Source of the DNA: Gelatoporia subvermispora B
Taxonomy: Eukaryota > Basidiomycota > Agaricomycetes > Polyporales > Gelatoporiaceae
Assembly: GCA_000320605.2 (NCBI GenBank)
Contig: KB445794.1
Coordinates: forward strand, 1,786,475-1,850,474
Length of the DNA stretch: 64,000 nt
Direction: 5' to 3'
The notes beneath the pieces are model-generated. The model ran no database searches. It was not told where the DNA came from and saw only the letters and a program-made list of their open reading frames with translations. Position numbers and translations under genes: made by a program. Below, piece by piece: positions 33,215 to 63,300 of this stretch. The first letter of the stretch is position 1. Each line of letters starts with the position of its first letter.

Positions 33215-34240
33215 TTACTCATCCAAGTGAAGCTCAAGTTCGACCTGAGGGAGGAGGCAGGCAGTCAGCGGCGAAAGACTTGTGAACTTTCGGAATCTAC
33301 GAGAACTGACCAGCGACACAATGTTCTTAATTTCTCGTGCAAGTGCATCTACGAAATCCCCCACAACTTCCACTGCTTTCACGCGACACTGAAGACAATT
33401 TAGTTCAAGTTTCTCCGGTTTGGCTTCCAGTAATAGCACTTTTTTGAGCTGAGTGCGATCGTCCTCCGTCGATACGCTATACGACAGGGGGCGCAATATC
33501 TCCATGGAAAGGCGACGATAGTCATTCCAACTAAGACCGCAAGGGCCGCACATGTCATCCAGAATACCGATCTTGTTCGCTATCGGATAGCAAGCCTGGC
33601 AGAAGAATGTTGTGTATCGCTCTGTGTGCATGGGGAAGTCCCAAAATTCCCTCTCTTCCAGCGCGCTCCATATCGCCTCTTTGTATCTCCGTCCATAAGC
33701 CAGCAGGTTCCACACGTTTTGGCCGCCAGCGGACCAAAGCGCTACAGGAGCATAGCTAGGAGGGTGACACATCTGCGTGTGCCGGGCCGCTTTGCGGGCT
33801 TCTTCTTTGAGGTTGAAATGACAGGCGATGCTGAAGACGCTGAACGGGTCTAGTTCGAGAAAGTCCGAGCTCATGAGGACTCTGTACGCGACCTGCTCTG
33901 CGTGTTCCATCATGTACTTCTTGGAAGCCTTCGTCACATTGAATACATCTTCTGCGTACTCGAGTTCAGGGTCGGCCAGTGGATAGTAAGCGCAGAATAG
34001 AGCGTCCAGGGTGCGCTTGTCCTCTTCCAAGGTTATGGGTTCCTCATTGTCATTTGTCTTATCTGCGCTGTATAACATGGCCGCAAATGTCTGAGACGCC
34101 ACGCTCAATATTGACTTGTGTACATGAAATTTCACGCCGTCCCTGGACCGTATACCAAGATCAGCAGGGGGCCGCACGTTGTCGACCGCAGGGATATTAC
34201 TAGCTTTGTCGAACGGAGGTGCGGCTTCGGTAAACGACAT
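33215..34240 (-). CDS. BTB/POZ-domain protein, gene 4 (intact)
   Basis: Start at 34240 (MSFTEAAPPFDKASNIP), matching the other paralogues; an in-frame ATG 13 codons upstream exists. The BTB core is ADLGIRSRDGVKFHVHKSIL, AAMLYSA, RTLDALFCAYYPLADPE. The second half holds helical blocks and CXXC-like pairs (CGPCGL; NCLQCRV). A 63-bp GTCAGT...CCTCAG segment near the end is a likely intron whose length keeps the frame, so retention would also be tolerated. The last exon ends VELELHLDE. Fungal BTB proteins of this type are uncharacterised; Cullin-3 adaptor function is only a family-level possibility. Confidence 0.8.
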   Translation of the reverse strand: MSFTEAAPPFDKASNIPAVDNVRPPADLGIRSRDGVKFHVHKSILSVASQTFAAMLYSADKTNDNEEPITLEEDKRTLDALFCAYYPLADPELEYAEDVFNVTKASKKYMMEHAEQVAYRVLMSSDFLELDPFSVFSIACHFNLKEEARKAARHTQMCHPPSYAPVALWSAGGQNVWNLLAYGRRYKEAIWSALEEREFWDFPMHTERYTTFFCQACYPIANKIGILDDMCGPCGLSWNDYRRLSMEILRPLSYSVSTEDDRTQLKKVLLLEAKPEKLELNCLQCRVKAVEVVGDFVDALAREIKNIVSLVSSRRFRKFTSLSPLTACLLPQVELELHLDE

Positions 34241-35146
34241 GATTGAGAAGAAGAATTGTAGGGACGATAGAAGATACAAGAATATGGCTGGGTAACAAGA
34301 TGGGTTAAAAGCATGAAGAGCTAGGCAGCGGTCAACAGTTCAACCAGATGACGTAGTGGTACAGTACAATCCGCTGTTCCGCCTCTTAGTGAATGAGCGC
34401 TATCGCCCGCTTCACGCAACCTGCCACCCACATAACATTCTTAATCTAAGTACAGGCTATGGATTACACGCATATTGCTATCAGTCTGTCAGATACAGCG
34501 ATAATCTCTTCCATCATAGTAAAAATGATTTGCACGGAGTTTGAGATATGCGTCGAAATTCAGCTGCAGCTTCACCTTGTTGTATGTGAAGGTACGACCG
34601 CGATAAAGGTGAAATTAGATACGGTTTCGCCGACTGCAGTGCTTTACTCACATCTGATACTGTGCGATTAATCCTTTCCATCACCACGTCTCGGTGAAAT
34701 TTGTGCAATGTGGTGAGAACCTCCTTGCGGCAGGAGTGACATGTCCATTGCTCTACCAGCTCAAATGCCACCATGCTGGTTAGCATCCACGCTGTGTGCT
34801 CTCCCGGTACTCAGCATGGGGTGTCCCCTAGCAATTGCGGGACAAGACAACAGTACATGGGCGCCTGGACCACGATAGTCCTGGCTCGTCCAGACGACCA
34901 TTCTCCCGCATCGCAGATCTTGCACTCGAACTTCAAAAGGTCTTCCGTCTCATCCTCAATCATGAGGTCGAACCAGAATTCATCCTCGTTAGCATCATCA
35001 CGAACGGCCTCTTCGCAGTCCTCTCGGTATTGCAATAAGGAGTAGAGTGTTGGGCCGCTGAGCCATTCGAGGCCTACAGGCGGTGCCGGAGGTGGGAAAT
35101 TGATTTGTAAGCTCTGTTTTGCTGCCTTGCGCGCCATATCCGCCAG

Positions 35147-35155
35147 CTCGTAGTG
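35147..35155. repeat. Target-site duplication, left copy
   Basis: CTCGTAGTG (a tenth base, G, is also shared). Identical to 43010-43018. On the gene strand it is CACTACGAG, encoding HYE of the interrupted BTB protein. Nine bases is typical for MULE-class elements. Confidence 0.88.
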
Positions 35156-35290
35156 GAGGCCGCGCAAAGTTGCTTTTTTGGCTCGCTTTGCTCACTTTTG
35201 CTCACTTTTTCCCACCGTAAATCGGTGGCTCACTTCGCGCTCACTTCGCGACAACTTCACTTTTTGCTTGCAGTCGCTTGCTTGCTTCCG
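35156..35290. repeat. Outer-left terminal array
   Basis: Repeated TCACTT/TCGCTT/TTGCTT words (for example GCTCGCTTTGCTCACTTTTG) on the plus strand, inverted with respect to 42900-43009. Probable terminal inverted region and transposase-binding sites. Confidence 0.65.
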
Positions 35291-35656
35291 CTGACGTCCC
35301 CTCCGGCGCATCTCATACGACCTCGGTGTATATATACTATACGCTCAATCTGCACGGGCTGCTCGGGTGCTCCGTAGATAAGGATGACCTCGTTTACACC
35401 CCACTACATCTCGACCACCTTTCATATGTTCGGACCGCCCTTCGGATGCTCAAACGGTGTAACATGCTCAGCGCAATACATTATATTGCGGAAAATGTGT
35501 TAAGTACCTCCGTTCGATGGCTTCTGTGCGACGTTGCCCGTCAGATCTGAGCGTCCCACCGACTAACAATTCCGTGCTCGAAGATGGTCCTAAAAGTGCT
35601 CTCTAGTACCAGTGCTGGTCTGTACATGTCAAATTCGAATGAAGAAGTGAGAATTG
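35291..35656. other. Spacer between left terminal arrays
   Basis: About 365 bp without array words or a gene I can support; contains TATA-like GTATATATACTATAC at about 35328-35342. Confidence 0.4.
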
Positions 35657-35870
35657 TAAAGTGCATGCATGCGCCCAAGTGAGGCACTTCGCTTACAAGT
35701 GAACGCGAAGTGAGGTGCAAGTGAGCGGTAAGCAAGCGCTTGTCATCACCTGCGAGAAAGCGAGAACAAGCGAGGAAAAGTGACTGTGAAAAGCGAGAGA
35801 AAGTGAACGAAAGTGAAATTGTCCACGCACAAGCACGCTACCAAGCGACCAAAGTGAGCTATGACAGTGA
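35657..35870. repeat. Inner-left subterminal array
   Basis: At least a dozen AAGTGA/AAGCGA/AAGCAAG words on the plus strand, opposite in orientation to the outer-left array and inverted relative to 42550-42710. The boundary AGTGAGGCACT at 35657 resembles the reversed right boundary AGTGAGGAACT. Confidence 0.65.
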
Positions 35871-35974
35871 GCGCTTATACTCCCACTGTACAGACGCCAG
35901 CCTGTTCTGACCTCCGCGACTACGTGTAACCAGATTTCTTGTGCTATGTGCTACTATATCACGTCTATTGTGTC

Positions 35975-38900
35975 TCAGTACTTCTTTCTACGTTTCCTCT
36001 GTTGCCTTCCAGGGCCCTTGTGAACCTGTGACACCTCCACAGGTTGCTGTCTCGGAGATTCTTCTACCCGCTCTTCTGTTGCTGCTGCCTCCTCCTTCGG
36101 CTCTGGTTCATTGTGTAAGGCAACAACGTTCTGCAAATTTGATCCACGAGTTCGTTTCAAGGGGCGAGGTCGGGGTCGCTTGCGCTGCTGTGGATCACCA
36201 GATGCCCGAGCAGTCGAGCGCAGGTCTCTGGTATGCCGTGGAGTGCGTTCAAACTTCGGCCCCCCTGTCAATTTATAATCTGCTGACGTCGCCTGGTCTT
36301 GCCTTGTCCCCCAGGTGTACGGCTGGGGACCACGCAGGACTGTAGCTATGGGCCCGTCAAAGCGAGCATCCAACTTCGCGGTCGGCCTGAGTTGGTCAGA
36401 ATGCATGAGTGCTAGATGGATATGACCAGGGTCTGTCGTATCCTCCTGCCCATCAAGCGCTGCCAATGCTTGCTCCGGTACTGATAGATTTCGCACAATA
36501 GACAGCTTGCAGTCTTCCTCTGGATCATCGAGTTGTACTTGCAGTTGTTTGCTAGCGAGCACCTCTACGACAATGCTGGTGTGTTCTTGTTCCTTTCTGG
36601 AGTCCGCAATTTCCACCACAATGCGATAGATCTCTTCATCGTTCTCCGGCTTGCAGTCAAGATAGGTTCGCAATACCACCAAGCTCAGAAGCAGATGAGC
36701 CGGTCCAAAGACCAGAGTCGTAGAATCCAATTTGTGTGACGAACCATCCTTCCGTAAGCGGGCTTCCAACTCCATGAGATATGGCTGAAGCAGGTCTTGA
36801 TCGCCTGGCAGGATGGGAATATCATGTGCTGTATACCAAAGACTGGTCTCCGATAATTTATTCCCTCCGGCCACGGACATGTCGAGAAAGCGTCTGATCA
36901 CAGGATGATCTCGGTCACCGGAAACGATCTGATAGATGGAGTGGAAAGCGTCATCAAGGATGTCGGTGAGGGCGGGGTTCCTATACCCATCACTGTCGGC
37001 ATCCTCTTCACCGAGTCGTGCTGGCCACCTGATCTTTCCGAGCTGTGATCATGTAAGCAGTGTATTCCTACTTGATTGCACATTAACATACTTTCCGTTC
37101 CAGGTAAGCATAACCACTCTGGTCATCCAGTGCCTGCGCAATCTGATAGATAGGAAGGACCGAGAATTTCGGTTTCTCGCTGGCTGGTGAGTAGATGTTT
37201 CCATAGTACCAGTCGAGCTGAACATTGAGCCCTTCGCGCTTTACTAGCTTCGCGGGGTACAATGCACCACCATTTACTGTCTCTAGTAAGACATGTTGAC
37301 CAAGACTAAGTATGATAACGTTAGTATCAATTAGACGCGGTATACCCAATATACCTACTAATCATCTTTCCATAGAGGTTTGAGAACATCATCGGCACAG
37401 CGAGGACATGCCCAATGCGAAACCGAGGATGGAAGCCCATACTGTGCTTCGATACACGGTATGTGATGCCAATACGAACACTCGTCGCATTCAATGGTGT
37501 CTGCCTCACAGTCATCGAGTGCAGAAACGGTTGACTCTAGCCCACATCCTGCACAACGGATCATATGCATCTCAGATGAGCGAATTTGTCGGCGGCCTTT
37601 TGTCGGAGGCTTTACTGGTAGGCGCTTTGTAGTCGGTCCTGTGACTTTGCGAGCCTGCTTTTTCGTGGCAACCGCTGGCTGTGGTGTAGGAGTCCGGACA
37701 ACAGATCCTGGTAATGCTCCAGATGAAGAGAATTTTGCTGAGTCCGTGTACGAGTCGCTGATGCTGATGACGGGCGAAGGTGGATGCGACTTGCGCCATC
37801 TCTCGTAGAGATCATGAATGTCAGATACACAGTGCTCTGTCACCTGATATGCAATGAATACAGCTTCCATGCTGCGAAAGATAGTAGATTATACATACAT
37901 ATGCACCCAAAACACGATGATAGAGAGCGAGGGAGACTTCGCTTGTTGGTTGCTGTAACATCGCATCGTCTCCAATACTGGTAAGCCTTCCTCCGTTCTT
38001 AACCGAGTCGTAAAGAAAAGCAGAATTGCTAAGGCGCATCTGTGCCGTGAAATGTCGATTCCTGTATAGTACCCGTCCAACGAGAAGGTATGTGACATCA
38101 GTTGACTGATCGCCCAAAGAACGCAGTCCCTTAATGGACCAACTGAGAGGAAACTTGACAGGATCCCGGTGTGCATATGTCTCGGGCGTATCAGCATGAG
38201 TTTCTGGTAGAATGCGCAGTGTCTGCGGCCAAGCTGTACGGATAATTTTGAGCACCATACTAGACCCGGAATGGCCTTCTTCGAGACACTGGCCACATTG
38301 ACGTTCATGAGATGTATGTAGCATAGTGGTGCCATGAGCATGTTTGCCTATAGGACGGCGAGGGATTGCGTGAGAGAAATAGTCTGCCAGGTCAATGTTA
38401 TCTTGTTCAAGTTGCATGCGGGTGAGCATAATGTCATAGGGGAGCAATGAGATTGCATCGGCAAGAGGCTGGCAAGCTGCTTCAACTGACTCGTGACCAA
38501 TAGAGCAGCGGAAGATAAGGAAGTGCTGAGGTCCAAAAAAGAGGCGGATGTTCGTATCATCAATTGTCTTGAGATAGGCACATAATGTCAGACCGTATAC
38601 AGTTCACACAAACAGCACCAAGAAACATACACGAACGAGGCGATTGAACCATGTCACCGTACATCCCATAGCATCCGGCTTCTCGTATAACTTCCACACA
38701 TTGTTGATGACATCACAAATGATACTCCGACCTGACTCGAGAATTGACACCCCTTCACCATTGTCATCTGAACCCGCACATATCCACTCTAAACGTGTCT
38801 GGTAGTGTTGGTACAGCAGAGTGAGTGGAGAGTCCGGGTTTGTGGCCTCCAGAGCACTGAGATGCTGCCGGCGTGCCTCCTGAGGCAACAGACCGTATGA

Positions 38901-41585
38901 GCGGAAGAACATGTCCAGAAGATTGTCAATGTAGCAGGAGTTGTCTTCCCATGGGTATGACATTAGTTCGCGTTCAGTGAAGGCTTGTGTAGGACCAGGT
39001 GACGGCACCACCGATGCTCCAGGGACTATTTGCGTTGTGGGCTTGGTCTTCGTTTTGGTGGTGTTGCGTGACTGCTTGTAACGAGTTCCCTTTGCAGCCT
39101 GGGCAGCGTGCAAGATGGCAGCTGTATCAGGAGCACGTCCATCATTATCCGCAAATGTCACCCGTGTAGATGGGCGCGCGGATGCAAGGCGTGTCTCGGC
39201 CTTAACCTCGCCAGCTATGAAATCATTCAAGACGTCAGCACCACGGTAAGGCTGCAAGGCATTTATGGAGAGAAATATACCTAGAATTGAGCTGTAATGT
39301 TGCTCCATCTCTTCGACATGAAGTACCAAACACTCAATACCGACAACCAAGTCTTGACCCGTCCCAGTAGCATGATGCAGAAGTGAGTGTTGCGTCTCAA
39401 CAGCATTGGATGTCAACGGGATTTCGGCAGCATGCTCGGGGCTGATTTTGCTCTTTGCAGGAAATATCATAGATGCGACCGCGGGACGAATCCACCAGTC
39501 AATCCAAGCTTTGATATTTGCAAATGTAGCACGTAATTCCGTGACCGCAGCATCAAATTCTTCAGATGAGGATTGACTCGAGAGCAACTGCTGCACGAGA
39601 CCAACAAATAGGTCTGACTGCTGGCTGGGAACCAAGCTCCCGTCCTTGTGAATACAAAGTGCGGATCTATGGAAATGAACCTCGCAACCTTTCTGAAACT
39701 CACGTGCTTCTTCAAATAACCTCGTGCGTTGAAGCACCTTTGCACCCTCTGTGAGCGAGTTCCAGCCTTCAATACGTGTGATCATAGTCTCGACATATTC
39801 TTCTTGATGAGCTTTGATCTGTGCTGCCGAAAAGTCCATGATCTAACGAGGATGAGCATCATGGAGGAATATACAATTTGGCAAAGCCTACGCACTGCAA
39901 ACAGCAACTTGCGTTCAAAGTTTGCTCCTGCAGCTTCACAAATGATACGGTTGAGGTGCCGGAAGTGAGGCCGATGGTGGGCGGCATCGATGCGGTTGAC
40001 CCATGTGTACAGAACGGGAACCCATGCATTGAGTACTCCACTGAATGCGCAAGTCGTAAGAAGGGTGCCGGTCCGAAAGAATGAGTGATCGCCATCTGTG
40101 ATGAAGCCGTGTCGTCCAGAACTTGGACCGCCCATTGAAGATTGAGTGAGCCAGTCATGTACGGCCTCCTTGGTAACGAGCTTCATGAATGGCGTACATA
40201 TGATACAATAGGTTGGCCCGCTAAAACTGGACTCGACAATAGCATTGAGCTTGTTGTTGAGCTCAGTCAACGCGCAAAGCGCAGCAAACGCGCCCTTTGC
40301 CGAGATTGAATGAACACCCAGTCGAGATTTACTTTGCTCTACCCTGTAGCGTGCGCGTCGTGGACTGGCTAGAGAGGGGACCAATTTGGACAACGGTACT
40401 GAGCCAGGCATTGTGTCACCAGTCCGTAACTCGTGAGCAGATGCATGTGGCTGCCGAGATACGATCTGATCAATTGCCTTCTCTTCCGCCTGCGTAAGGT
40501 GACCACCTGGTGGACGTGCATGCTTGTGTTCACCAGAATGCTCCCACACGTGGAAGGACTGCCCCTCGTGTTCTCGGGCCTCGTGGTAGTGGTAAATACG
40601 TGCCTTGCAATCGATCCAGTGCATCTTTCGATTATGACACTTCGGGCTCTGGCAGCCTTCTCGCTTTTGCCCTCGGCGTGCATTTGCATCCGTTTTGGGG
40701 CGTATAAGAAAGCCACAATCTGAGCATTGGAGAACACCAAGGCACCTGCTAACGCGTGCCAAGTATCCATCGTGGGTCTGATTGCCGATAGATCTCCAGG
40801 CCCACTTGCTGTCCCGCCACCTTCCGTCGTCTTCCGCATCTGCTGAGTGCTCGCGAACTTGGTTGCCTGAGGGCCAATCACGTTCTATGCGCACAATGAC
40901 AGTTTATAAAAAACAAAACAAAAGCGATGGGCAGTAAGCGCACCTTCTTGACTCAAATGCTCGCCAGCAAATTGATCTTGAATATGGCCTGCTCTGCCAT
41001 GGTTCTTCATCTCCAATGTCGCGCCATCGCCGTCTTTTACCAGTGTTTGTTTGCCTTCTGTTGATGCTACTGTCCGAGTCCGAGGGTAGGGGAGAGCCTC
41101 TGCATCAACAGATTGGTGTACAGGTGCCTTCAAATTGTCCAGACTCGAGTTACGTCTCTGCTGGATAGATTCATCGCTCGGCGACGATGTGCAGGGAAAT
41201 GGATAGCAGGGTTGTACCAGGGCGGTTGAATCGGAGGAGGTGCATAGCCGTAGGGGTACGAGGTATACAGCGGTGGGTATATAGGCGAGTACATGGGATG
41301 TGGAATAGGTGAATATGGCGAGAAATGGGGATGAAACGGGGGTATAGATAGTGCTCCATGATTCTGAGAGGCAACTAGTAGAGACATTGCATTGGTCAGT
41401 GCATAACATTGATATATACACTGGGGCATACCATTAGAATCGTGCGGGTCAAATCCACGTAGCAACAGCTGTTGGTGCGGGCGACTGAAACTGTTCAAGT
41501 GAGCGGGAGGAACGACTTGAGCATCAGAAGTAGCAGCATAATCTCCAGTCGAGCGTTCTAGCTTGGGAACAAATGATGGATGCAT
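35975..41585 (-). CDS. Transposase: GCM-type zinc finger, MULE DDE core, USP-like protease, PHD finger
   Basis: The downstream six of its seven introns join in frame, giving roughly 1,700 residues from ATG 41585. N-terminus is Pro/Tyr-rich. A WRKY-GCM1-like finger is seen at about 40770-40560 (CLGVLQCSDCG, CQSPKCH, HVWEHSGEHKH). The DDE core has HGFITDGDHSFFRTG (first Asp, about 40110) and VNRIDAAHHRPHFRHLN; SNAVETQHSLLHHA (about 39400) suits the late acidic residue. A USP-like domain follows: Cys box WEDNSCYIDNLLDMFF (about 38930) and His box NRHFTAQMRL...FLYDS (about 38060). A C4HC3 PHD finger (CAGCG...CDECSYWHHIPC...CPRC) lies at 37560-37390. A compact domain (LGQHVLLETVNGG) and a basic tail (QQRKRRKKY) end the protein. 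No stop or frameshift seen. The exact N-terminal splicing is uncertain. Confidence 0.8.
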
Positions 41586-42549
41586 CCCCTCATCCCCTGG
41601 GTTTGCGGATAGCGGCCCCGGATTCAGATTGAGTGTTAGACGCTGAAGCGCTGCCCGCCGCCCTCCGACGCACGTCCGAGACAGCGACCGGAAGTAACTT
41701 GCCCGAGACTTTCCGTAATTGGACTTGGTGGCGGTCGTCGATCACTCTGCCACATGGGCAATTTGCGGAGACAAATCACATTTATTACCACTAAGTGTAC
41801 TAGTGACAGTGCGTGAGGCAATACTACTGGTTTGCATAATTAGTTGATGTCCGATTTAGTGATACAGGAGACGAGGAGGCTCACCTATAGATATATCATG
41901 CTGCAAGTAGTCACAATAGTACTGCAGTGGACCGGCAGCCGCCCTTGGATCCCCATGAGTTAAAATGTCCAGTGAAGATCGACCAGGCCTTCGGGAGTAA
42001 ATCTGCCTGCTGGGGTGAAGAGGTTGGCGGGTTGCGAAGTGTTCCGTACCATAATTAGAGCCGCTGCTATGAGACACTGGCAGCCGACACCCAACACCTC
42101 CAAGCCAGTGTGGAGTCAGTCATTTGGGTCTTTACACTCCACACAGCAGGCAATGGCCAAGAAAACAGCTGTGAAAATACCGCTATTTAAACGAGTGATT
42201 GCTAGGGATTTCAAGGCCCGGGACATTTTCAGTGTGATGTTCAAGTTCCGCAGGTAGCCAGAGCCATCTCGGACAGGTTCAGAGAGGGGAATGGGACACG
42301 AGAACAAGTGTTGGACAGGTAGCCTGCTCGAGTTCTGCACAAAAGACCAGGGGAGGAACGGACTTGTCGTCGATGAAGGTTGTAGACGTGGGCAGCCGCA
42401 GAGCACAGCGAGCGCCGTGGTACCACAGACGTCAATGTGCCGCCCTGCGGTTGCCTGAATTCCTATTCATGGCACTGTGTCGGGAAACTCCAAGGACTCA
42501 ACATACTAACAACTAGACTATATCCGACCAGTTCTCGTGTTCTAGTGGC

Positions 42550-42710
42550 CAATCTCACCATTCACTTCGCCTCACACTCGCTCGCTTCGGATCGCTTGCA
42601 CTCGCTTCACGCTTGCTTGCGTTCACTTTTGTTCACTTCCTCCTTGCTTTCGGGCGCTTCTCTCTTGCTTACGCCTCGCTTCGGTTCATTTTGACCTCAG
42701 TTCCTCACTA
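42550..42710. repeat. Inner-right subterminal array
   Basis: Dense TCACTT/TCGCTT/GCTTGC words on the plus strand, ending CCTCAGTTCCTCACT. Inverted counterpart of 35657-35870. Confidence 0.65.
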
Positions 42711-42899
42711 GCCCAATATAAATTGTACTGTACCAGTCGTAAATGAAGACACGGGCGCATTGTACGGATAGACACTGATAATTTCAGTCGTGAGCGCAAG
42801 AGAATTCCATGAGGAGGTGAAAGTGAGAGATTCATTGCCGAGATGCCGAGATGTTCCGCCTTAACTCCGCAGCGTCGGAGACGATCTGACGCCAAAGCC

Positions 42900-43009
42900 A
42901 CTGCCCAAGATGGTAAGTTGCTTGGCAAAGTTGCTTGAAGCAAGCTTACTTGCTTTTGGTGGGAAAAAAGCGAGCAAAGTGCGCACTTCAAGCAAAAATG
43001 TGAACCGTC
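42900..43009. repeat. Outer-right terminal array
   Basis: GTTGCTTGGCAAAG, GAAGCAAGCTTACTTGC and GGTGGGAAAAAAGCGAGC lead to the right target-site copy. Counterpart of the outer-left array. Confidence 0.65.
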
Positions 43010-43018
43010 CTCGTAGTG
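43010..43018. repeat. Target-site duplication, right copy
   Basis: CTCGTAGTG, identical to 35147-35155; joining the two BTB halves through a single copy restores the continuous ACHYELADM reading seen as xCRYELAKE in BTB gene 3. Confidence 0.88.
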
Positions 43019-43670: not shown

Positions 43671-44682
43671 TCAGAAAGGTAGTTTAAGATCGACCTGAAT
43701 GTCACAACTTCGATGTCAGGCTCGCCCAAGAACAAGGACAATCTGCACTTACCCGAGAAATGGCATCCTCTAGGTCACTAAGAACTACTTCCGCATTGAA
43801 CTGGCGCACCTCATGAGTTGCCCTCTCGCGGCAAGAAAAGCAAGGAAACTGCTTGAGCAGATCTAGCTCGGTAATGATGAGCTCCGTCAAGGTTCGCATG
43901 ATTTTGTCATCAGGGATCCAACAAGAAGGCCGTTCGAATATGGCGAGTGCAGCCTTGTAGTACATGTCTGGGTCCAGCTTAAATTCTCCGGTTGTGCCGC
44001 CCATGGCGAGAGGTTCGCATGTCCCACAAGATATCGTAAGACTCTTCTGTGCCAGGACAGTGTTTGCCCAATATTCCCAGTTGCATACACGATACTGCAC
44101 CTCATCTGTGCATGCTTGTCGGTACTTGAGATATGCGAAGAGTGTTCGACCACTGATCCAGTCCAATCCGGCGGGGTCCTCGAGTGGCGGGAAATCTTTG
44201 CGCAGGCTAAGTTTAGCTGCTGAGCGAGCTTCTTTGGCCAGTTCGTAACGGCAGGTGATGGTAAATACGTTAAAGGGCTCCTTGTCTAAGATGGCAGGTG
44301 ACATGAGAGCGTCCAAGCAAAACTTCCACGCGTGGTCGACCATGTATTTCCTGGAAGCCTCCATCACGTTGAAGAGGTCTGAAGCGGTGGTCAGGGACGG
44401 GTCGGCGATTGGGTAGCATAGACGGAACAGGGCGTCCAGTGTGCGTGAATGCTCTGTGAAGGGAATAGCCTCCTCGCTATCCCCCATAACCTCAGAGACA
44501 GATCCCTCTCCGCTCAGCATCGCGGCAAGTGCATGCGAGGCTCTGCTGAGAATCCCTTTGTGGACGTAAAAATTGACCCCGTCGCAAGATCTAGCAATTA
44601 CGTCTGACACAGGGAAATAGTTGTCAAGGGTGGGAGTGTTGCTGGCCTTGTCGAAAGGGGGCAGGGCCTCGGAGGTGGGCAT
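43671..44682 (-). CDS. BTB/POZ-domain protein, gene 3 (intact)
   Basis: Exon 1 (43753-44682) begins MPTSEALPPFDKASNTP. It carries the BTB core VIARSCDGVNFYVHKGILSR, AAMLSGEGS, RTLDALFRLCYPIADPS. The C-terminal half includes CGTCEPLA, ELDLLKQFPCFSCRERATHE and a helix SDLEDAISR. A GTAAGT...TTCAG intron (43695-43752) gives a 24-bp last exon VDLKLPF with TGA at 43671-43673. With gene 4 it is the reference for judging damage in genes 1 and 2. The tiny last exon would be missed by simple ORF calling. Function unknown; protein-protein adaptor role is family inference. Confidence 0.83.
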
Positions 44683-45025
44683 TTTAGATCAACACAGATA
44701 CGGGATAGCCTATCGGGTTGGTGACAAGAGGAACACATATACAACTGCGCGACGAGTGCCGCACAACTTGTCTTGAGACTCCTCTGTTTGGCTTTGTTAG
44801 GATCCAAGGTTATTGGCTTCGACGCCCATGCGCTCAGTTCATAACGGTTACTAAAGCTTGCATACAGTCACCTTCAAAAGTGAGCCTAGCCCACTCGAGC
44901 GACGACTGTGATCCGCTCGACATTCACATTAAATCAGTCACACTGAAGATATTCTCTGACAACTACATGTACAGCTCTTCTGTAGCACTATTTGCTAAGA
45001 TTGTTGCCCGTCCGTCAACCAGAAT

Positions 45026-50866: not shown

Positions 50867-53800
50867 CTATGACAAGTGGAAACTACCAACACCCTCGCAC
50901 ATTGCGATCTGCAATTTCTCCTTCATGACAGATTTCGATGAATACTCCGGCAACTTGAGATAATTGACGCAGGTCATCACGCTTGGCAAGTAATCGTCTG
51001 CCGTCAGTGGCGCTTCGTGTGGTTTTCGTACCACGGTGAGTGGGGGGTTGAGCCCACGGAAACCTGGAGACACATCATGAAGACAATGCGGGACACGAAT
51101 GCAGACAATACGTACCACCGATAGGTAGCTTGGGGCTGCCGGTGATGAATTGAAGATAACTCCGACGAGTTGATACGTCATATCCCGACATGACTTCGAT
51201 AAGGTCACGAATCGCACGGCTCTCGACATTGAAGCCATGATCAGCCTTCAAAGCTTCACTCAACGCTGTCGAAGTCATTGAGCATGCGAACTCGAATTGG
51301 TGATAGGAATCGTAACTCACTCTCTACGCTCCAATCCTCGTCAGAGTTGCCAAAGAGCATTACCAGCTCATCTGCAGTGAATGCCTGCAGATCGCTTATT
51401 GGGAACACCTTTGAGAATCCCTCTCGGAATGCTTTCGCTTGAGGTTGTGCTCCTTTACCAATGATAGCATCGATGACCCGGCGAACATAGTCGTCGACGT
51501 TGTCGGCAGTGACTGGGATGTCTCGGCCACCGGGCTATGGTACATTGGATGAGGATGATACAAAGCTTATGACCACAGTCTGCTTACCAAGAGCTCGATA
51601 TCGTACCCAGGGATGGTGAAGTCCAATGCAAGGTCCTCAAGATCGACATCTTCCACCATTGCAAGCTTGCGGCGCAGCTGAAAGGAAGATGAGGACTCGT
51701 GCCGGAATGCCGGAGAACAACGAGATGACGCACCTTCTCGTTCTGTCCCTTAGCAGCGGCGTAGCCTTGGATCTTTGAAAGCGAAGCCGCAAGTTCCGGA
51801 TCAACACGCTGCAAGACGAATTAGAATGCTGCTGCTTCTGCTTGAATAGTATGTCACATACATTCAGTGCCTCGATTGTCAAGGGAACCTCCTCGCCGAG
51901 AATCATTTTCAGGAACACTTTGTTCAACGATAGGTCGATGATTCGCGAGTCCAGCATTGCTTTCGCAACGAATTGACCAATGACACGGAAGATATGCGTC
52001 TTCTTCCTGTAACGATAATCGCGTGAGACTATGTCAGAGGCATCATAAAAGGGCACTTACTGCCCGCCGTCGTTGGCCATATCGTCAGGGCTGATAGGGG
52101 CAGGGAAAAGACCAAGCGGATGGTGAACGAAAGATCCTGTGACGGTCGGATCGGCATCCCTCCAAATCTTCAAGTCTCTCCTCGCAAATTCCTTAGAGAC
52201 TAGCGAGTAGAATTCAAGAGTAGGACCGAGACCGGTACCAACTTCCTCAAAGTATTCCACTTCAAGAATCGATGATGATGAACCGTACAGCTCGAAGACC
52301 TTGACGGCAGACTCGAGAATGTGCTTGCGCGATATGCGGACCTTCTGTCTCTGCAGGCGACCCAAGAATCCGACGCCGTCGTCTCGTCGTGAGCTGTCCT
52401 GGCCACGGCTCTGCTGGCTCTGCCACTTCATGATAAGACGGGCATATCCGAAGGACGTCGACTGCAAGAAGTTGTACCGCGTGGCGAATGGGAAAAGGAA
52501 TGGGAAATGCAGGGGGAGATCGAGCGCCCAATCAGGGAGACAAGAACTCGCCACAATCATCGGCTCCTCCAGCTGTCGGGTCAGTTTCGCGGTCAACTTG
52601 TTGTTAACGAAGGCCGATTCGCCCAAGACACGCTTCGAGACTTGGGGCGTAGCATGATCACTCTCCTGTGAATTGACTCTGTGCAGCACACGAAGTAGCC
52701 GCAGAATCTTCGCATGGGGGGCGTCTTCTGGAAGCGACGAGAGTGCTGGGCCTGGGGACCTGCTACGAGCTCCGGTCTCATCCCCTCGGGCTATTACACT
52801 GGGATCAGTTTTGCGAAGCCGAGGAGTATGCAAGGCTCACCTTCAGGAGCAGGCGCTGGCCCTGGTACCTTCTTGAATTTAACAGTATATATGCCCTGCC
52901 AAATCATGCTAGGGGGCAACCCGGTCCCTGTCTTCTTGCGTGCTTCATGCTGGTGAATTGCGCCGTAGATAGTCAAGTCTAATGGAAGCTTATGATCGTC
53001 CATGAGAAATTCTAGATGCCAATCGCTCGGTTTGGTCTTTAATGCGGCCGCATACGATGCTCTGGGAGCTGAGGAACGGGTGGCTGGTGGCGAATTCAGA
53101 GCTCGGGCAGGGTTTGGCGTCGTCACGCGTGTCCCATCCGGCGTCTGCGCCTCTACTTTGGAGCCATCTGTGTCTCATATATGAGTGGAAGGATTCATCG
53201 CAAAGTACACAAACTCACCGTCTCCCACGGACACTGTAACCGTCTTGTCGGAGATAGACTGATCTGGATCAGATTCCTCGTCAAAGACCTAGATTATTGT
53301 CAACAACAAAGTCCAACGTATTGCCGCCATTAGACTGACCTCAGCGTCAACGTCTAATTCATCGTCCGTGAAATCAGCGGCGAACTCGTCATTGACCATG
53401 GTCTCACTCGGAGCCCCATCTGCATCAGATACGGAATCACCAGACCCCTGAGGATGACTAGAGGATTCTGATACAGGAGCAGCCTGGTTCTCAGCTTGTT
53501 CCTCCGCAGTACCAGCAGCAGCAGCGTCAGTATTGCCAGACTTCTTGGCGCTAAGACGGAGGCTTCGCCTGCGGTTCACAGCAGCAGCCGAGGCGGAAGA
53601 TGATGAAGCGGGTCCACCTGCAGTAGACGCAGACATGTTCCCGACGTCAGTGGCCGTGTCACGTAGCGCGGAAGGGGGTGCGAATCCAGAAGCCGCGAGT
53701 GCCGCAAGCATACCGGAAAGGCGTGAACTGCTCGACAAGAGTCCCGCAACTCTTGGGCGGAGATAATCGTGCAGGGCCTGGAAAGTCGCAATGGCATGGA

Positions 53801-56800
53801 TAGATACCACAATATTGCTGAGATTCTTCGGGACGTCGGAATCATCGGCAGCCATGAGACGGAGACGGAGCTGGCGAGCAAGTAGGGAAGGAGAACTGCG
53901 CTTCGAATCTAAGAAGAATTATCAGAATAGTATATAAATGGTTGTTGAATGCAGACATACCATCCGCACTTTGCGCGATTGTCACAACCTCGAACGACTC
54001 CATACGCGTCAAGCTTTCCTGGAGCTTTTTGACGAACGTAGCAAACGGGGTAGGGCCGCTCATAATGCCTCTGGTCTTCCTGGTCGTTAGGGCTGAGAAC
54101 AGTAACTCACGGCGGCAGCTGAGAGTCACTGGAGATTCGGATTATGAGACATCGCATACTCGTGAATAAGGAATTTCCTCACCGGCCCCCTCTTCTTCCG
54201 TCATGTATAGGAGTAGCGTATCGACCAAACCACTTTGCAGTAACTCAAAACTGGAGATGGAGCTATTAGGCGAACCAAATAGTCCAGCTAAATCGTCCAA
54301 GGTCGTAAGCAGATCTTCCTCTGCTGCGTTCCTGTCTGAAAGACGTTGCACAAGACGGCGCATTACCACTACGAGATCACCTGAATCGCCCTGTTCGTCG
54401 CTTGTGAGATATTTGAACCGGATGACACGAGCACGGAGGGTGATAGCATCATCGGGATCCAAGGATAGGGACGACAATCTCTTGATACCAGGGATGGGAA
54501 CGATGGGCGGAGGTGTTGGAACAGGATCCGGCATGGGAGACGCGTCGGCATCTTTCTCTTTGTCCTTGTCCTTGTCCTTTGACTTGGATGAGGTGATGGA
54601 ACGAGCAGCCAAAGTCTCAATCTCATGCAGGACCCCTTCTCGTCGAAACACGGGTTTGTACTCCGTAGGGAGCTTACTCAGCAAAAGTTCAACCAGCTGC
54701 AACGCGCCGATAACCAGCGTTGGGTGGTCTTTGGACGATAGGATCGAAGACGCGAAACCGGCCACAGGAACGCACTGAGAGAATTATGAGAGCCCGTATA
54801 TGCATAATCAAGTACGCATGGCACATACCGTGAAAACTTGCTTAAGACCTTCGCCATCCAAGAAACTGACTGCTTTCAACAACCCCGTAAGAGTCTTGAT
54901 CCTAACCGGTGTCACCACACTTGCAGCATAGACATCAACGAGGATTGGGACCATGAGACGCATAAATCGTCCGACTACTGCTGGCTTTGACCGAAGCATA
55001 TCGGTGCGATCAGGTGCCACCTCCTTAGCTGATGCTGCAGGAATATTGTCCTCTGCTTCCTGCGCAGACTGCGAGTCGGCAGCACCGTCAGGACTGACGT
55101 TCTCGTCTGGGACTGCGGGGGAACCGCCTGCTGTTGAGGCGGCACCGGAATGCAGGTAAGGCAGACCGAGCGCGGCCTGACGAGCAGCCACACGTTCAGC
55201 TTTGGCCTTATTCTTCACCATTCTTGTCAAAGCTTTCTCCGTGTACGATTTATGCTCGAAGACACCATCTAGCTTCAGGTCAGTAGGGGCTCTTACCACA
55301 ATGCTATCACAAACCTTTGGGCAACGGGGGCATTAATTCCGATACCAGGCTCAGGGCTTCTTCAACTTGATCTTTGGGACGGTGAGCAAGATTCTCCATG
55401 ACCGTCATATCCGCCAATCCTCCCCCTAGTCCCTGACCTCCCGCTGCACCCCCTTGCTCCTCGCCTCCATCGGAAGAGGGAGGAAGTACACCAGTCAAGA
55501 TTTGGTACAAAGTCTCAACGATACCAGCTTCGAGTAAGACAACAGTGATCTTCGGGCTAGCACGGGCGGCTGTGGCCAATGCTCTGAGTAACAAGGTAAA
55601 GGTACTCGGGGCAATCAGAGGAGAGCCACCAGCAGGAAGCAGGAGTAAGTTGACAGCTTGGATGAGGTCATTGTCGATAAGAGCTTCGAGGTTATCCGCA
55701 GACGAGCGGTAGTATGCGTCGATGACACGTATGACGCACATACACGCAAACTCGACCAGACGCTGGTCGGAATAGCCAAGACAATTGCGTATGATTGGCC
55801 ACACGCCCTTGATCATGGGGAAATGCTCGGGAGAGATGTTGCGACAGCAATTGGCGGCAGCTTGAAGGGCAGTTCGCTGTACTGCTATCGAGAAGAAATC
55901 AAGATAATTCAGCAGAGCAGCCAAACCACCTTCCCGCACGATTGAGCTTGGAAATTCTTCCGATATTTTCTCCAGGGTCTGTGAATGACGGTGAATAACT
56001 GCTGATTCGTCGGTAACGAAATTTCACTCACGCTCAGCGTCTGTTCCGCTAAGTCAATGTAAGAGATCTCAATCAACTTGCTGCAAAGCACAGGTATTGC
56101 TCCATGGTAGACGACGGTATGCGCAACGCCGGGTAGAGCCTCCATTAAATTGGCAAGGCACCTGCAGGCCAAGACCTGCGCTTCTAGATTCTCGTCGCCT
56201 TGATAGGACCCACCCCCTGCGCTGAGAGCTAGAGCTGCCGCAAGGGCGGCATCTTCATCTACTTCTTGCTGGTCGTCGTCGTCACCGTCCTCGGGGTCGC
56301 CACCGGTGCCGCCCAGGATACGCACAAGCTCACGAATGAATGCTTCCACCTGGAACGAACCTGCAAGCGTGTCTTCCGTACTGATGCTCAGCAATTCACT
56401 CAACTCCTGTAGCGTAAGGAGTCGTGTGGTCGGATCCGCAGTCGGTTTGATGTTGTTCAACATGGTCTTAAGGCGAGAAGATAGACCCATCATGTACGAG
56501 CCCAGCTGGCGGAAGTCACCAAAGATTGCCATCGGAGACGTGTCGCCAATGCCTCCACTAGATGGTCTGTCTGGTTCTTGGTGCTCCTCGTGGTCGTCGT
56601 CCATGTCGTCGTCATCATCACCATCGTCATGACCACTTTCGTGTCCGTCATGTTCATCAGCATCTTGATGAATCTCAGCGGGATGATCGAGGTCTTCGTG
56701 AATGCACTCGGCATCCATCATCTCAACGTCCTCGTCCTCCAGGTGCGATGAACTAGCAGTTGTGACTATAGACTTGGTCTTCATTGTGGTCTTGCCCTTG

Positions 56801-57415
56801 CCCGAAGTGGATCTGTCACATGTGAGGCGGTGGAGGGGTGAAGTGCAGCATAGCACATACCTCGTCTTCCTTGTCATCTCTGGTGCGGAATGATTCTCGT
56901 TTCGCGGACGAAGCGAATATGCGCCGGAAGTCCTCGTACGTTTGCTGGGTGCAGATGTTGTGGCAAGCGTCTCTTCCTCGGAGTGAGTCTCTGGAACTGC
57001 GCGCTTCTTGCCCTTGCCGTCCTTGGACGGGTCTTGGATTGCTACTGAGGCAGGGACGGGATACGTCGTACGACGGGCTCTGCAGGAGAATCAGTGCCGG
57101 CCATGTGTAATGCCGTCGGAACACATACCTCTTACTCGCGCGTGACTGTTCGTCGGAGACTTCCTTCCCCTTTCCCTTCGATGCGACGGTGTCGCGGGAG
57201 CGCTTGGATGCGGACGATGAGGACGATGATTGCTGCTCCGCAGATGGGCGTTCCTTCTCCTTTCCCTTTTGCTTCGCTGCTTTGACTCGGGCACTGGAAC
57301 GGAGAGCCTTTGGCTCGGGTGGGAATGCACTGGCTGCGGCGGTCGATGGCTCTTCTTGAGGCGATGCGATGACGGGATTGCTACTTGTCGCGTCTGGCTG
57401 ATGGGTAGAGTCCAT
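50867..57415 (-). CDS. UFD4: HECT-type E3 ubiquitin ligase, Ufd4/TRIP12 family
   Basis: ATG 57415 ([18 protein letters not shown]). A basic/Ser-rich disordered N-terminus and an Asp/Glu/His-rich block (56.6 kb) precede ARM-like repeats ([56 protein letters not shown]). A WWE-less middle follows, then the HECT domain from about 52500 ([40 protein letters not shown]). The C-lobe gives [16 protein letters not shown] and the catalytic region [19 protein letters not shown], where the Cys in MTCVNYL is the thioester nucleophile. Final residues are EGVGSFHLS. The family builds ubiquitin chains on N-terminal ubiquitin fusions and damaged-protein targets. About 14 introns; no break seen. Confidence 0.88.
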
Positions 57416-59534: not shown

Positions 59535-60336
59535 CCCCACTTCGTGGCGTCGGACTGCATGGGTTATCGGCCAAATTCAGGGCCAGGATATGGGCGAGCG
59601 GGCTTCCGTGGTCTGCATATCTGCGAGATCGAACGTAAGCGAGTCATCCCTGACTTCGACCCGGAGAAGAGATAGCCTGGGCGCCAGACGTTCTAGCACC
59701 CTACAGACTCTGTCGACAACGTTAATTGCTCTCCCTTGGCTGTTCCACACCCTTGTTGAAAGCGCTCCTACGTCTGGATAATAATATGGTGGAAGTTGCC
59801 CACAATCTGACCAATTTCCGTGTCTACGCTTACTCGAACTAGCGGGAATGCGGCTGCAGCGAGGCTTGCGAAGCCTTCTTTGTAGTCACCGGACTGTAAA
59901 GCGGATAGGGGCAGTGTCGAATTCCAGTATTCAATCCACATTCTCCGACTACGCGTCTCGCAGGCTGGACAACCGATTGCGCGATACTTGGATGGTCAAA
60001 TGATATCTGATTTAAGGCGCACGAGTAGATTCATGTAGGACCCTGAGTTTGAGGTGAAATCCGGGAGCATTCCGAGAGTACGATGGACCACGGGGTTTTG
60101 ATTCCAGTAGGAAAAGAAGTAGATCAAGTACACCGGTTGCTCCGACCTCATGGGGAGCAACGAAGAGACGCAAACTTGCAAGAACACAATCCAGGAATTG
60201 CGGTAAGCGCCTATTTTTACGTCAGCAGAACGCGTCTCCAGCAGCTGCAACGGCGGCGTGAGGTCATGACCCTAACTTAACTGTAGAACTCGATGTACTC
60301 GACCGCTTGCTAGCCACCACGCCCAACGATCCGCAC
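59535..60336. other. Intergenic interval
   Basis: About 0.8 kb between the divergent aminotransferase and NTR1 genes. Short frames only; nothing I can support. Confidence 0.4.
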
Positions 60337-63300
60337 ATGGCCCGACGAAAACGTCAGTTCCTTGAAGACGACTCCGATTCCTCCCCCGTTTCCGACGCCG
60401 ACGACTATAACGACCCTACTATCGACGAGAACGATCCCGACGCGCGTGCAGAGCGAGAGCTCTTCGAGAATCCATACAAGCGCAAGAGGAGAAGAAAGGA
60501 CGGCAAGGAGGACGCGATATACGGCGTCTTTGCTGACGACGACGACGAAGACGAGGGTTTCGGAGGCAAGAAGGGCGGGCGAGGTCAGAAGAGGAGCGAT
60601 TGGACTAAGGCTCCTGCGTTCGTCTCGGGCGAGAAAGTCAACCTTGACAATAACATCGAGATAGATGAAGATGAAGAGATGAAGGATGGTGAAGAGGATA
60701 TCGACAAAGCGGAGGACGCTACTCATGACTCTTCGGCAGAGGAAGATGAGGAGATGGACGAGGACTCCGAACCTTCTAAGCCGGCCTCACCGCGTGTGCG
60801 CGAAGAAGAGGAAGAGGAAGAGGAACGTCCTAAGTTCGGCGGCTTGGGACTTGGTGCGTCCAAGGCGGCTGCCGGATTCTCGAGAGGCGGTATAGGCTCC
60901 TCTGCACAAGCCGAATTGTCTGGGTTCTCCAAAGGGGGCATTGGCTCTTCTACACAAGCTGGCAGCTCCGCATTTTCCAAGGGAGGCATCGGCTCTTCTG
61001 CTCAAGGTGGTCTGTCGGGCTTCTCAAGGGGAGGCATCGGCACCTCCAAGCCTACACCTTCCACGTCCACGTCCCCATCTCCCGCCCCAACATCAGCCGT
61101 CGAAGGCGACCTACCCTCCGCGTTCGGCAGTGCACGCGCGCAGCGCTCCTTTGTCCGTGATGGCATCGGTGGCTCTGCCTCCCCAAAACCCGCGACGCCT
61201 CTCTCCGCGGCAGAGCGGGTACACTTTAGCAAGCTCTCGGGTACATATGGTGCGCGTCTTCTGGAGAAGATGGGTTGGCAAGCCGGCACGGGTCTGGGCA
61301 CAACCGGTGAAGGTATCGTCACCCCCGTCGAAAGCAGACTCCGGCCCAAGGGCATGGGTCTTGCCTTCAAGGGTTTCAAGGAGAAGACAGAGCAGTCGAA
61401 GGCAGAAGCGCGTCGGCGGGGCGAAATCGTCAGCGACGACGAGGACGAGCGGCCGGCCGCACGCAAAGGCCGGAAGGCAGCTGCAAAGGCGCACGAGGAG
61501 AGGGCGGAGGCCTGGAAGAAGCCGAAGAAAGCAAAGACCAGGGTCGAGCACAAGACTTACGAGCAAATCATCGCAGAGGCAGGCGAGGAAGCGCCGCAAG
61601 CTGGGATCGGGCAGATTATCGATGCGACTGGTGCTACGGTATGCCTCTGTATGCATATTCTGAGTAGGGATCCTGACGTGCTATGTAGCCCCGGGAGGTC
61701 ACGTCCCTCGCTGATGTATCCATGGCGTCGTGGACCCCGTCCACAGACCCCACTCGGTTGCCTGAGGTTCGGCATAACCTGCGCCTGATTTCCGAAGCAT
61801 GTAAGGGTGATCTGGATGGCCTAGCACGCGAGGCGCGAGCCCTTGAAGAGCGCAAGAATTGGATACGCCAAGAGGATGCTCGTCTGCGCAAGAGAGTTGA
61901 GGAAGAGGCAGAACGTGCGTCTCTACTCCCAGTCGACATGTGTAGTATTGACCCGCCAAAATATGCAGTTATTGCTAGATTACAACAAGTGCATCTCGTG
62001 GTGGACGACATCAACTCACAAGCGCAAGAAATGGCAACCATGTATGAAGCGTCCCTTGAGCCATTCTCCGCAAACTTCGAGAAGCTCTTAGGACTGTATC
62101 CGAAAGAGTTCGACAAGTATCGCCTAGATGAGATAGTTGTCGCAGCAATCGCTCCAGTGGTAAGTGACAAACTGTGTCCCTTGTCTCATCGGTGCCATCT
62201 GACCATATTCGCAGGTTCGCCGCATGCTTGCTCAGTGGCAGCCATTGGAAGACCCGACAGCATTCACGACTACGTTCCGATTGTGGCGGCGTGCCCTCAA
62301 GATGGCATCTCAAGAAGAGCAGCCGCGGGATCAAGTGCAAGTATACGGCTCTAGCACCGTCATATCCACGGCGATCCAACAGTCAGTGATATCTTGCTTT
62401 ATTCCAATTTCCCGTACTAATGTTTGTAACAGGGAGAAGCTCATGACACCATATGAGAGCCTCCTCTGGAATGCATGGCTTCCAAGAGTCCGCTCCTCCA
62501 TCAACAACGATTGGTCGCCCGAGGATCCCCATCCCGCCGTACGCCTGTATGAAGCATGGTCCAGCTTCCTTCCTCCATTTATCCGTGACAACTTCTTCGA
62601 CCAACTGGTCTTGCCAAAAGTACATAAGGCGGTTGACGATTGGAATCCCCGCAAGAGCAAGGTTTCCTTGCAGACACTAGTATTCCCATGGCTGCCCTAC
62701 GTTGGCCTACGGCTCGAGGAGGTCCTCAGTGACGCACGCAGGAAGGTCAAGCACCTACTGCGGACATGGGTGGCCGCAGAGGGTGTCCCGAAGGACCTTG
62801 GCGTCTGGAAAGATGTAGGTCACCTGGAAAAGCGACTGTTGTGCTTTAGCTGATCTCTTTCCACTTAGGTCTTCGATGTAGGCGACTGGGATACCATGCT
62901 GCTCAAGTATGTTGTACCGAAGCTGGGCACGCGACTTCGCGAAGACTTCCGCGTCAACCCACGTAGCCAGGACATGCAGCCGCTACAAGATGTCATGTCA
63001 TGGGAGCATCTACTGCGTCCCTCCATCCTCTCTCAGCTACTCGAGACAGAGTTCTTCCCGAAGTGGCTGGATGTCCTGCACATCTGGCTTATCCAACCGA
63101 ACCCCAGTTTCGAAGAAGTCGCGCAGTGGTACGCTTTCTGGAAGAGCACGTTCTCAGAGGACGTCCGCGCCATGCCAAGTGTTGCGCAGGGCTTCACTCG
63201 CGGCTTACAACTCATGAACAAGGCGATCGAGCTTGGTCCCGATGCGCCTACGCGTCTGCCACGCCCAGAACATCGACCACCTCCCTCAACACCCCCGGCG

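Follow-up and report, generated by a model that had tools for sequence, protein, structure and literature searches.

Gene Structure and Genomic Context

The window, a stretch of DNA of 64,000 nucleotides, contains a transposase gene on the minus strand (35975..41585), the strand on which all features described below also lie. The gene comprises nine exons (41585-41432, 41363-40944, 40884-39896, 39842-39281, 39214-38631, 38567-37899, 37843-37359, 37305-37092, and 37042-35975) that encode 1714 aa. Its eight introns, where the sequence-only reading had counted seven, are all of the GT-AG type and 49-68 nt long, and the spliced frame has no internal stop, as that reading had stated. A database match identifies the gene as CERSUDRAFT_122698 of Gelatoporia subvermispora B. 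Aligned across 1714 columns, of which 48 are gaps, the window protein and the public model agree at 97.1%, which leaves one mismatch. The public model starts 31 residues farther upstream and lacks 48 conserved aa near 39.6 kb, a stretch at which it seems to be in error.

The gene lies within a whole MULE-like element of 7.85 kb (35156..43009) that is flanked by a perfect 9-bp target-site duplication, CACTACGAG, with identical copies at both outer ends (43010..43018 and 35147..35155). A 10-bp word, CCACTACGAG, is shared at this site; the longest direct word common to the 100-bp windows at the two ends is 10 bp, a length that arose in 12 of 2000 trials in which the letters of one window were shuffled. 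A BTB-type gene is split around the element, exactly at the target-site duplication.

The 5′ terminal inverted repeat region, at the end upstream of the transposase gene, spans 42895..43009 (aligned part 42998-42895), and the 3′ region spans 35156..35279 (aligned part 35176-35279; relic matches 35161-35263), the inner border of each being approximate. Long terminal inverted repeats characterise MULEs; those here are degenerate (68% over 108 columns, 8 gaps), and their inner border is hard to place amid recurring words that resemble AAGTGAGC. Elsewhere in the genome a copy of the low end survives as a solo relic, whose match to the element begins at 35161, 5 bp in from the inferred terminus; no match was found between this relic and the flank of the element.

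Zinc Finger and DDE Core

The WRKY-GCM1-type zinc finger (GCM; 40508..40822, residues 213-317) has a predicted fold that matches the GCM/WRKY fold, with Cys/His zinc ligands in place, and thereby bears out the finger that had been proposed from the sequence. It is followed by the DDE transposase core (39204..40498, residues 321-712), which carries D455/D457, D524, C574-x2-H577, and E670. Among proteins with letters at these sites, D455 and D457 are each kept in 76 of 77, the second D of the triad (D524) in 62 of 65, and the E in 62 of 62; the Cys and His of the C-x2-H between the second D and the E are each present in 59 of 59. A C(2)H motif in this position marks MULEs. The 9-bp duplication falls within the 8-11 bp that define the MULE superfamily (PMC6446971, excerpts). 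Fold comparison of the core, which in a MULE should have an RNase H fold near the IS256 type, returned ISCth4, HIV integrase, Hermes, Mos1, Tn5, and RAG, with a match below the safe Z, and no Pfam MULE domain was found for the window protein or among the 25 families listed, out of 32, for its homologs. The conserved catalytic residues accord with the MULE-type core described earlier; the missing Pfam domain and the fold match are its weaker points.

USP-Fold Protease Domain

The domain at 37899..38978 (residues 788-1126) is a USP-fold cysteine protease by its predicted model, and is placed in no named subfamily. The fold was found by structure comparison of this model (pLDDT about 88 in the USP part), which gave a match to USP folds for the 38.0-38.95 kb segment, in which the sequence-only reading had seen a USP-like domain with Cys and His boxes. 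The catalytic Cys802 lies in the motif NSCYID (38934..38936) and is Cys in all 48 rows that have a letter there, the other 20 of the 68 being gapped; His1075 (38052..38054) is His in 39 of 39 (29 of 68 gapped); and the third catalytic residue, Asp1090 (38007..38009), is Asp in 28 and Asn in 12 of 40 (28 of 68 gapped). In all 34 proteins that show the three sites together, Cys, His, and Asp/Asn are kept. A putative zinc site of the fingers consists of a C-x3-H half (C924, H928; 38493..38507; C in 43 and H in 42 of the 44 rows filled there) and a second half (C994, C997; 38286..38297) that is C-x2-C here and C-x4-C in most relatives. The C997 column is Cys in 36 of 38 rows; few rows have a letter in the C994 column, since the spacing varies among relatives.

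The protease domain is strongly diverged in sequence. The UCH_1 profile matched one of 12 family members (E 0.011), and a profile search with the protease domain for solved USP structures matched none; USP membership is assigned because of fold and motifs, not sequence profiles.

PHD Finger and C-Terminal Region

The PHD finger (37397..37561, residues 1221-1275), a C4-H-C3 zinc finger, has a profile that matches solved PHD fingers with a best E of 5.8e-9, consistent with its earlier identification. The Pfam match in the window protein itself (E 0.0024) is below Pfam's cut-off; Pfam finds the finger in 20 of 32 homologs at E up to 0.5, with a best value of 7.5e-8. After the finger comes a small β-rich domain, a possible reader (37161..37304, residues 1289-1336), with predicted strands at 505-509, 516-525, and 528-533 in model numbering (pLDDT about 83-86) and with W, N, and Y invariant in 16 sequences. 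The compact reader domain suggested from the sequence is here a predicted small β-structure placed in no fold class; for a reader of BAH, Tudor, or PWWP type, the listed matches show one weak hit, to Tudor_3 (E 0.14), in one of 32 homologs. The chain ends in a partly conserved region with a basic tail (35978..37042; G-x-I-x-W-P-x-R-L ... L-R-x-Y-L), for which a family search gave no significant match.

Recurrence of the Fusion

The modules lie in the order and place that had been claimed: GCM finger, DDE core, USP-fold domain, PHD finger, and small β-domain. All 32 homologs found in the first search have the transposase followed by the USP-fold domain; 22 have the PHD finger and 23 the small β-domain, and of the ten homologs that lack the PHD finger, six extend no more than about 60 aa past the USP domain. 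Relatives include one from Grifola, and Mycena albidolilacea, Pholiota molesta, and Somion occarium are among the species that have several database members in a cluster. When domain order was compared in other Agaricomycetes, as the sequence-only reading had proposed, a USP-fold domain followed the transposase in 52 of 52 relatives long enough to judge. Because the order recurs in homologs, the module chain is more than chance. These gene models support the notion that one gene encodes transposase, USP-fold protease, and PHD finger, and that the fusion recurs in many species. Within the transposase chain the protease recurs with its catalytic residues conserved and is almost undetectable by sequence profiles; it goes unmentioned in the public names listed for the homologs (hypothetical, uncharacterised, PHD-type or GCM domain-containing).

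What the data show is the two ends with their 9-bp duplication, the split gene, one open frame across the fused modules, a domain order that recurs, and catalytic sets that are conserved; the USP and GCM folds are shown as predictions. The element looks intact and is probably a cut-and-paste DNA transposon of MULE-like type from Agaricomycetes, with a single protein that carries a USP-fold isopeptidase for ubiquitin or a ubiquitin-like modifier.

Possible Substrate and Alternative Explanations

The sequence-only reading had called the protease a deubiquitinase. It may be one, but the top two Foldseek rows for the domain are USPL1, a human isopeptidase for SUMO that has the USP fold (PMC8983731, excerpts), and the features by which ubiquitin-specific USPs hold ubiquitin are absent or relaxed here when set against the excerpts of that study. 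At Cys+3, Asp is found in 46 of 48 relatives, as in USPL1, whereas the host USPs have Asn in six of the six Cys boxes found; the Cys box reads C-W-L-D in USPL1 and C-[FY]-x-D here (PMC8983731, excerpts). At the likely position of the Glu that binds Arg72 of ubiquitin, placed by eye, 25 of the rows listed have Thr and just 3 have Glu. The β8-β9 hairpin is short in 34 of 38 rows (judged from the Tyr-to-His spacing alone, which is 14 or less), whereas this spacing is 16-17 in nine of nine host USPs; judged in the same way, the domain has no β8-β9 blocking loop, as in USPL1. The residue after the catalytic His is Phe in the window protein, as in USPL1, though in just 17 of 39 family rows; the short hairpin is a further likeness to USPL1, which differs in being a host enzyme with a four-Cys zinc site where the transposon-borne domain has C-H-C-C (PMC8983731, excerpts). 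USPL1 contacts SUMO through Arg324, Phe335, and Asn398 and acts on SUMO but not on ubiquitin (PMC8983731, excerpts).

SUMO is slightly favoured over ubiquitin as the substrate, and what probability remains falls to another modifier or to none. A bolder reading, somewhat less likely than not, is that a transposon lineage converted a USP-fold enzyme to SUMO cleavage on its own, as happened in parallel with animal USPL1 and with the Ulp1 proteases of plant MULEs, and joined this enzyme permanently to its transposase and a PHD finger, such that one chain would clip SUMO at the chromatin being cut. On that reading, MULE transposition would have come to need local deSUMOylation more than once in evolution. 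If the protease does cut SUMO, USPL1 would no longer be the single example of a USP fold specific for SUMO but one of two.

The main competitor, somewhat doubtful in view of the USPL1 matches, the Thr at the likely Arg72-binding site, the short hairpin, and the Asp at Cys+3, is that an ordinary USP has evolved fast and is a canonical deubiquitinase, acting for example on histone H2A/H2B at the target or on the transposase against degradation. This explanation overlaps the preferred one, with the substrate fixed as ubiquitin.

It is unlikely that the gene is immobile and was domesticated by the host from an old transposon. The coding part is single copy in the 37.7-Mb assembly, the long frame is intact, and the terminal repeats are just 68% alike, as domestication would allow; against it stand the perfect duplication with the BTB-type gene split exactly there, the solo relic that shows this terminus at another place in the genome, and the near-universal retention of the DDE residues among relatives. 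Quite improbable is a non-enzymatic module that binds ubiquitin or a ubiquitin-like protein for recruitment only: catalytic residues are no proof of activity and the domain is strongly diverged, but retention of the full catalytic set in 34 of 34 proteins would be superfluous for mere binding. A gene-model artefact that joins neighbouring but separate transposase and USP/PHD genes is scarcely credible, since, although the gene structure is read from DNA and the public model already seems wrong in omitting 48 conserved aa, the fusion is found in 52 of 52 qualifying proteins and the open frame 38604-39842 runs stop-free from the second catalytic D of the transposase core across a 66-nt intron to the USP Cys box.

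Proposed Mechanism

The module chain suggests that the element edits protein tags while it moves. The GCM finger would bind the terminal repeats, and the DDE core would excise and insert the element with a 9-bp stagger, while the PHD finger and the following β-domain may hold the complex on chromatin. The protease could act on the transposase itself, or on chromatin and repair proteins at the break, by removing SUMO or ubiquitin, and such removal might protect the transpososome and ease repair. Histone editing and a choice of chromatin by the element, which the sequence-only reading had suggested, may be further roles.

Relation to Known Transposon-Borne Proteases

Unrelated transposons repeatedly acquire ubiquitin or SUMO proteases (Ulp1, OTU, VTD). 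Mutator (MULE) elements of plants, hydra, and lancelet carry an Ulp1 SUMO protease and so, like the window element, combine a MULE-type transposon with a cysteine protease for a ubiquitin-like modifier; their protease has the Ulp1 fold rather than the USP fold, and the excerpts of that report do not describe a GCM-DDE-USP-PHD chain for them (PMC2836005). Ginger1 transposons carry OTU or Ulp1 proteases, and Ginger1-9_HM has Ulp1 together with a PHD finger (PMC2836005, excerpts). They resemble the window protein in having protease and PHD finger C-terminal to the DDE transposase, but differ in their integrase-like transposase and their CCGG/CCGT-specific target duplications, and the excerpted text tabulates no USP for them (PMC2836005). 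A USP-family domain (Peptidase C19) does occur in the Trichomonas transposase_11 protein XP_001314237.1, in which the transposase family differs by description (PMC2836005, excerpts).

Helitrons carry VTD deubiquitinases, proposed to protect transposition proteins, and thus also bear a ubiquitin-system protease, but are rolling-circle elements, unlike the MULE-like element here (PMC9741609, excerpts). VTD membership of the present protease was considered and rejected: VTDs have an Asp-x-His motif in the excerpts of that study (PMC9741609), whereas Asp1090 comes 15 residues after His1075, as in USPs.

Rehavkus, a MULE outgroup, shares with the window element a 9-bp target-site duplication and a PHD finger in a MULE-related transposase (PMC6446971, excerpts). 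The words ubiquitin, OTU, Ulp1, and protease are absent from the main text on Rehavkus (PMC6446971). Its hosts are arthropods and annelids, whereas the element described here belongs to Agaricomycetes (PMC6446971, excerpts).

Gene structure and the public model

The sequence-only reading of one minus-strand gene with exons joining without stops is borne out: nine exons spliced from 41585..35975 encode 1714 residues with no internal stop, and the eight introns are all GT-AG, 49–68 nt long. The database entry for this gene in Gelatoporia subvermispora B, CERSUDRAFT_122698 (P0001), aligns with our protein over 1714 columns at 97.1%; given the 48 gaps, a single mismatch is implied. Its start is placed 31 residues upstream of ours, and 48 in-frame codons near 39.6 kb (window about 39540–39690) are missing from it. 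The omitted codons include the DDE core's C-x2-H motif, and every relative that has letters at this place keeps it (59/59); the public model is therefore probably in error here.

Conservation of the domain order

The domain order read from the window gene recurs in other Agaricomycetes. A search with residues 215–1480 retrieved 32 proteins, in all of which (32/32) the transposase is followed by the USP domain, with a PHD finger in 22/32 and the small beta domain in 23/32. Six of the ten PHD-less proteins end no more than about 60 aa past the USP domain, two (P0030 and P0032) show the beta domain alone after it, and the 213 and 128 aa of further sequence in P0019 and P0026 gave no PHD or beta-domain match. 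A length-limited search with the USP profile alone yielded one protein, and the transposase profile alone, with only proteins of about 294–936 aa within reach, yielded 46. When both search sets were pooled, all proteins in which the transposase match reaches profile position 480 with at least 60 aa beyond it continue into the USP domain (52/52, 20 of them from the transposase-only search), a count made with profiles built partly from the same proteins. Every named host is an agaricomycete (32/32 records of the first search and the 28 named among the 46), belonging to the Polyporales, Agaricales, Boletales, Russulales, Gloeophyllales, and Atheliales. Transposase and USP distances among 33 proteins are correlated (r 0.90; 0/2000 permutations as high). 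On account of the recurring order and these correlated distances, the fusion looks old and stable.

A transposon with a Ub/Ubl protease is a kind already known, since Ulp1, OTU, Peptidase C19, and VTD cases have been reported. One paper describes MULEs carrying Ulp1 and Ginger1 elements carrying OTU or Ulp1 (Ginger1-9_HM has Ulp1 and a PHD finger), and briefly mentions a Trichomonas transposase_11 protein that bears Peptidase C19 (PMC2836005); two others describe Helitrons encoding VTD deubiquitinases (PMC9741609) and Rehavkus, with a 9-bp duplication as well as a PHD finger (PMC6446971). Literature searches covering openly licensed papers gave no description of a USP-fold protease recurring in a GCM-MULE-like transposase.

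Ubiquitin or SUMO as the substrate

The protease had been proposed to be a deubiquitinase. The USP domain recurs after the transposase, and the case for ubiquitin as its substrate is loosened by residues resembling those of USPL1, the human SUMO isopeptidase of USP fold. As described in PMC8983731, USPL1 cuts SUMO and not ubiquitin: both blocking loops are absent, Phe replaces the Tyr after the catalytic His, Tyr451 replaces a conserved His in the hairpin ahead of that His, and Phe335 replaces the Glu that binds ubiquitin Arg72.

In the transposon family, the residue after the catalytic His is F in 17, W in 14, and Y in 8 of 39 rows, and the window protein has Phe, as USPL1 does; all 9 host His boxes identified in this genome have Y. 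The spacing between the conserved Tyr and the His is at most 14 in 34/38 family rows, a short hairpin, and 16–17 in 9/9 host boxes. The hairpin residue (Tyr+8, counted by hand) is F in 16, H in 14, Y in 7, and W in 1 of 38 family rows and H in 9/9 host boxes; the hairpin Tyr lies 4 residues before the His in the window protein versus 5 in USPL1. At the likely equivalent of the Arg72-binding Glu, placed by eye, the commonest residues shown include T (25), S (6), and E (3). Cys+3 is Asp in 46/48 family rows, as in the USPL1 Cys box C-W-L-D, and Asn in the 6/6 host Cys boxes found. Taken together, the His-box, hairpin, Glu-site, and Cys+3 features weaken the case for ubiquitin and lean to SUMO, short of proof; Tyr after the His is kept in 8/39 rows and the hairpin His in 14/38.

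C-terminal domains and proposed mechanism

For the family as a whole the PHD finger is secure; its match in the window protein alone is weak (E 0.0024). The predicted small beta domain that follows (model strands 505–533), a possible reader, is conserved. Between about half and two thirds of the aligned rows include the remaining C-terminus, which gave no significant family match in the window protein. The anatomy is what the sequence shows. By inference from what the named families do, the most likely course is that the GCM finger would bind the TIRs, the DDE core would cut and insert the element, and the PHD and beta domains would keep the machinery bound to chromatin. The protease would strip SUMO or ubiquitin, either from the transposase itself or from other proteins at the break.

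Element ends and insertion site

The gene sits in a complete element. The word CACTACGAG at 43018–43010 is repeated at 35155–35147, and 10/10 letters agree when one flanking base is included. This shared word alone is not overwhelming evidence, since a shared word of 10 between the two 100-bp end windows also arose in 12/2000 letter shuffles of one window. The two copies do, however, bound imperfect inverted repeats that are 68% alike across 108 columns, and the outer flanks are two parts of one BTB-type gene that, fused with one duplication copy, read in frame (...FAIACHYE / LADMARKAAK...). Paralogs of this gene continue through the insertion point in 5/5 aligned host loci. The split gene may already have been decaying, as about 70 residues found in paralogs are absent between its two matched parts (a 210 bp gap in the paralog at C4:955.7 kb). 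BTB-type paralogs on the same strand surround the element (33215–34339 and 43702–44688, Pfam BTB in both), and more lie at C4:955–958 kb. Inside both ends, at 42560–42700 and 35680–35810, short AAGTGAGCG/AAGCGAG-like words are repeated, possibly as several putative transposase binding sites.

Searching the 37.7-Mb assembly turned up no further copy of the coding part. A solo terminal-repeat copy of the low-end terminus lies at C4:1366060–1366162 (L015, another locus of this genome, 1501–1603; 85% over 103 bp); the match begins 5 bp inside the inferred low end and does not enter the flank. This relic may be the remnant of an older or non-autonomous relative.

Elsewhere in the window, 55909–57090 (-) holds part of a gene for a TRIP12-like E3 ubiquitin ligase (Pfam TPR_TRIP12_N, E 4.4e-14), with no evident link to the element. 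The frame at 52057–52836 looks HECT-like and gave no Pfam match. A gene at 60262–61788 (+) with Pfam TIP_N and G-patch resembles tuftelin-interacting splicing factors.
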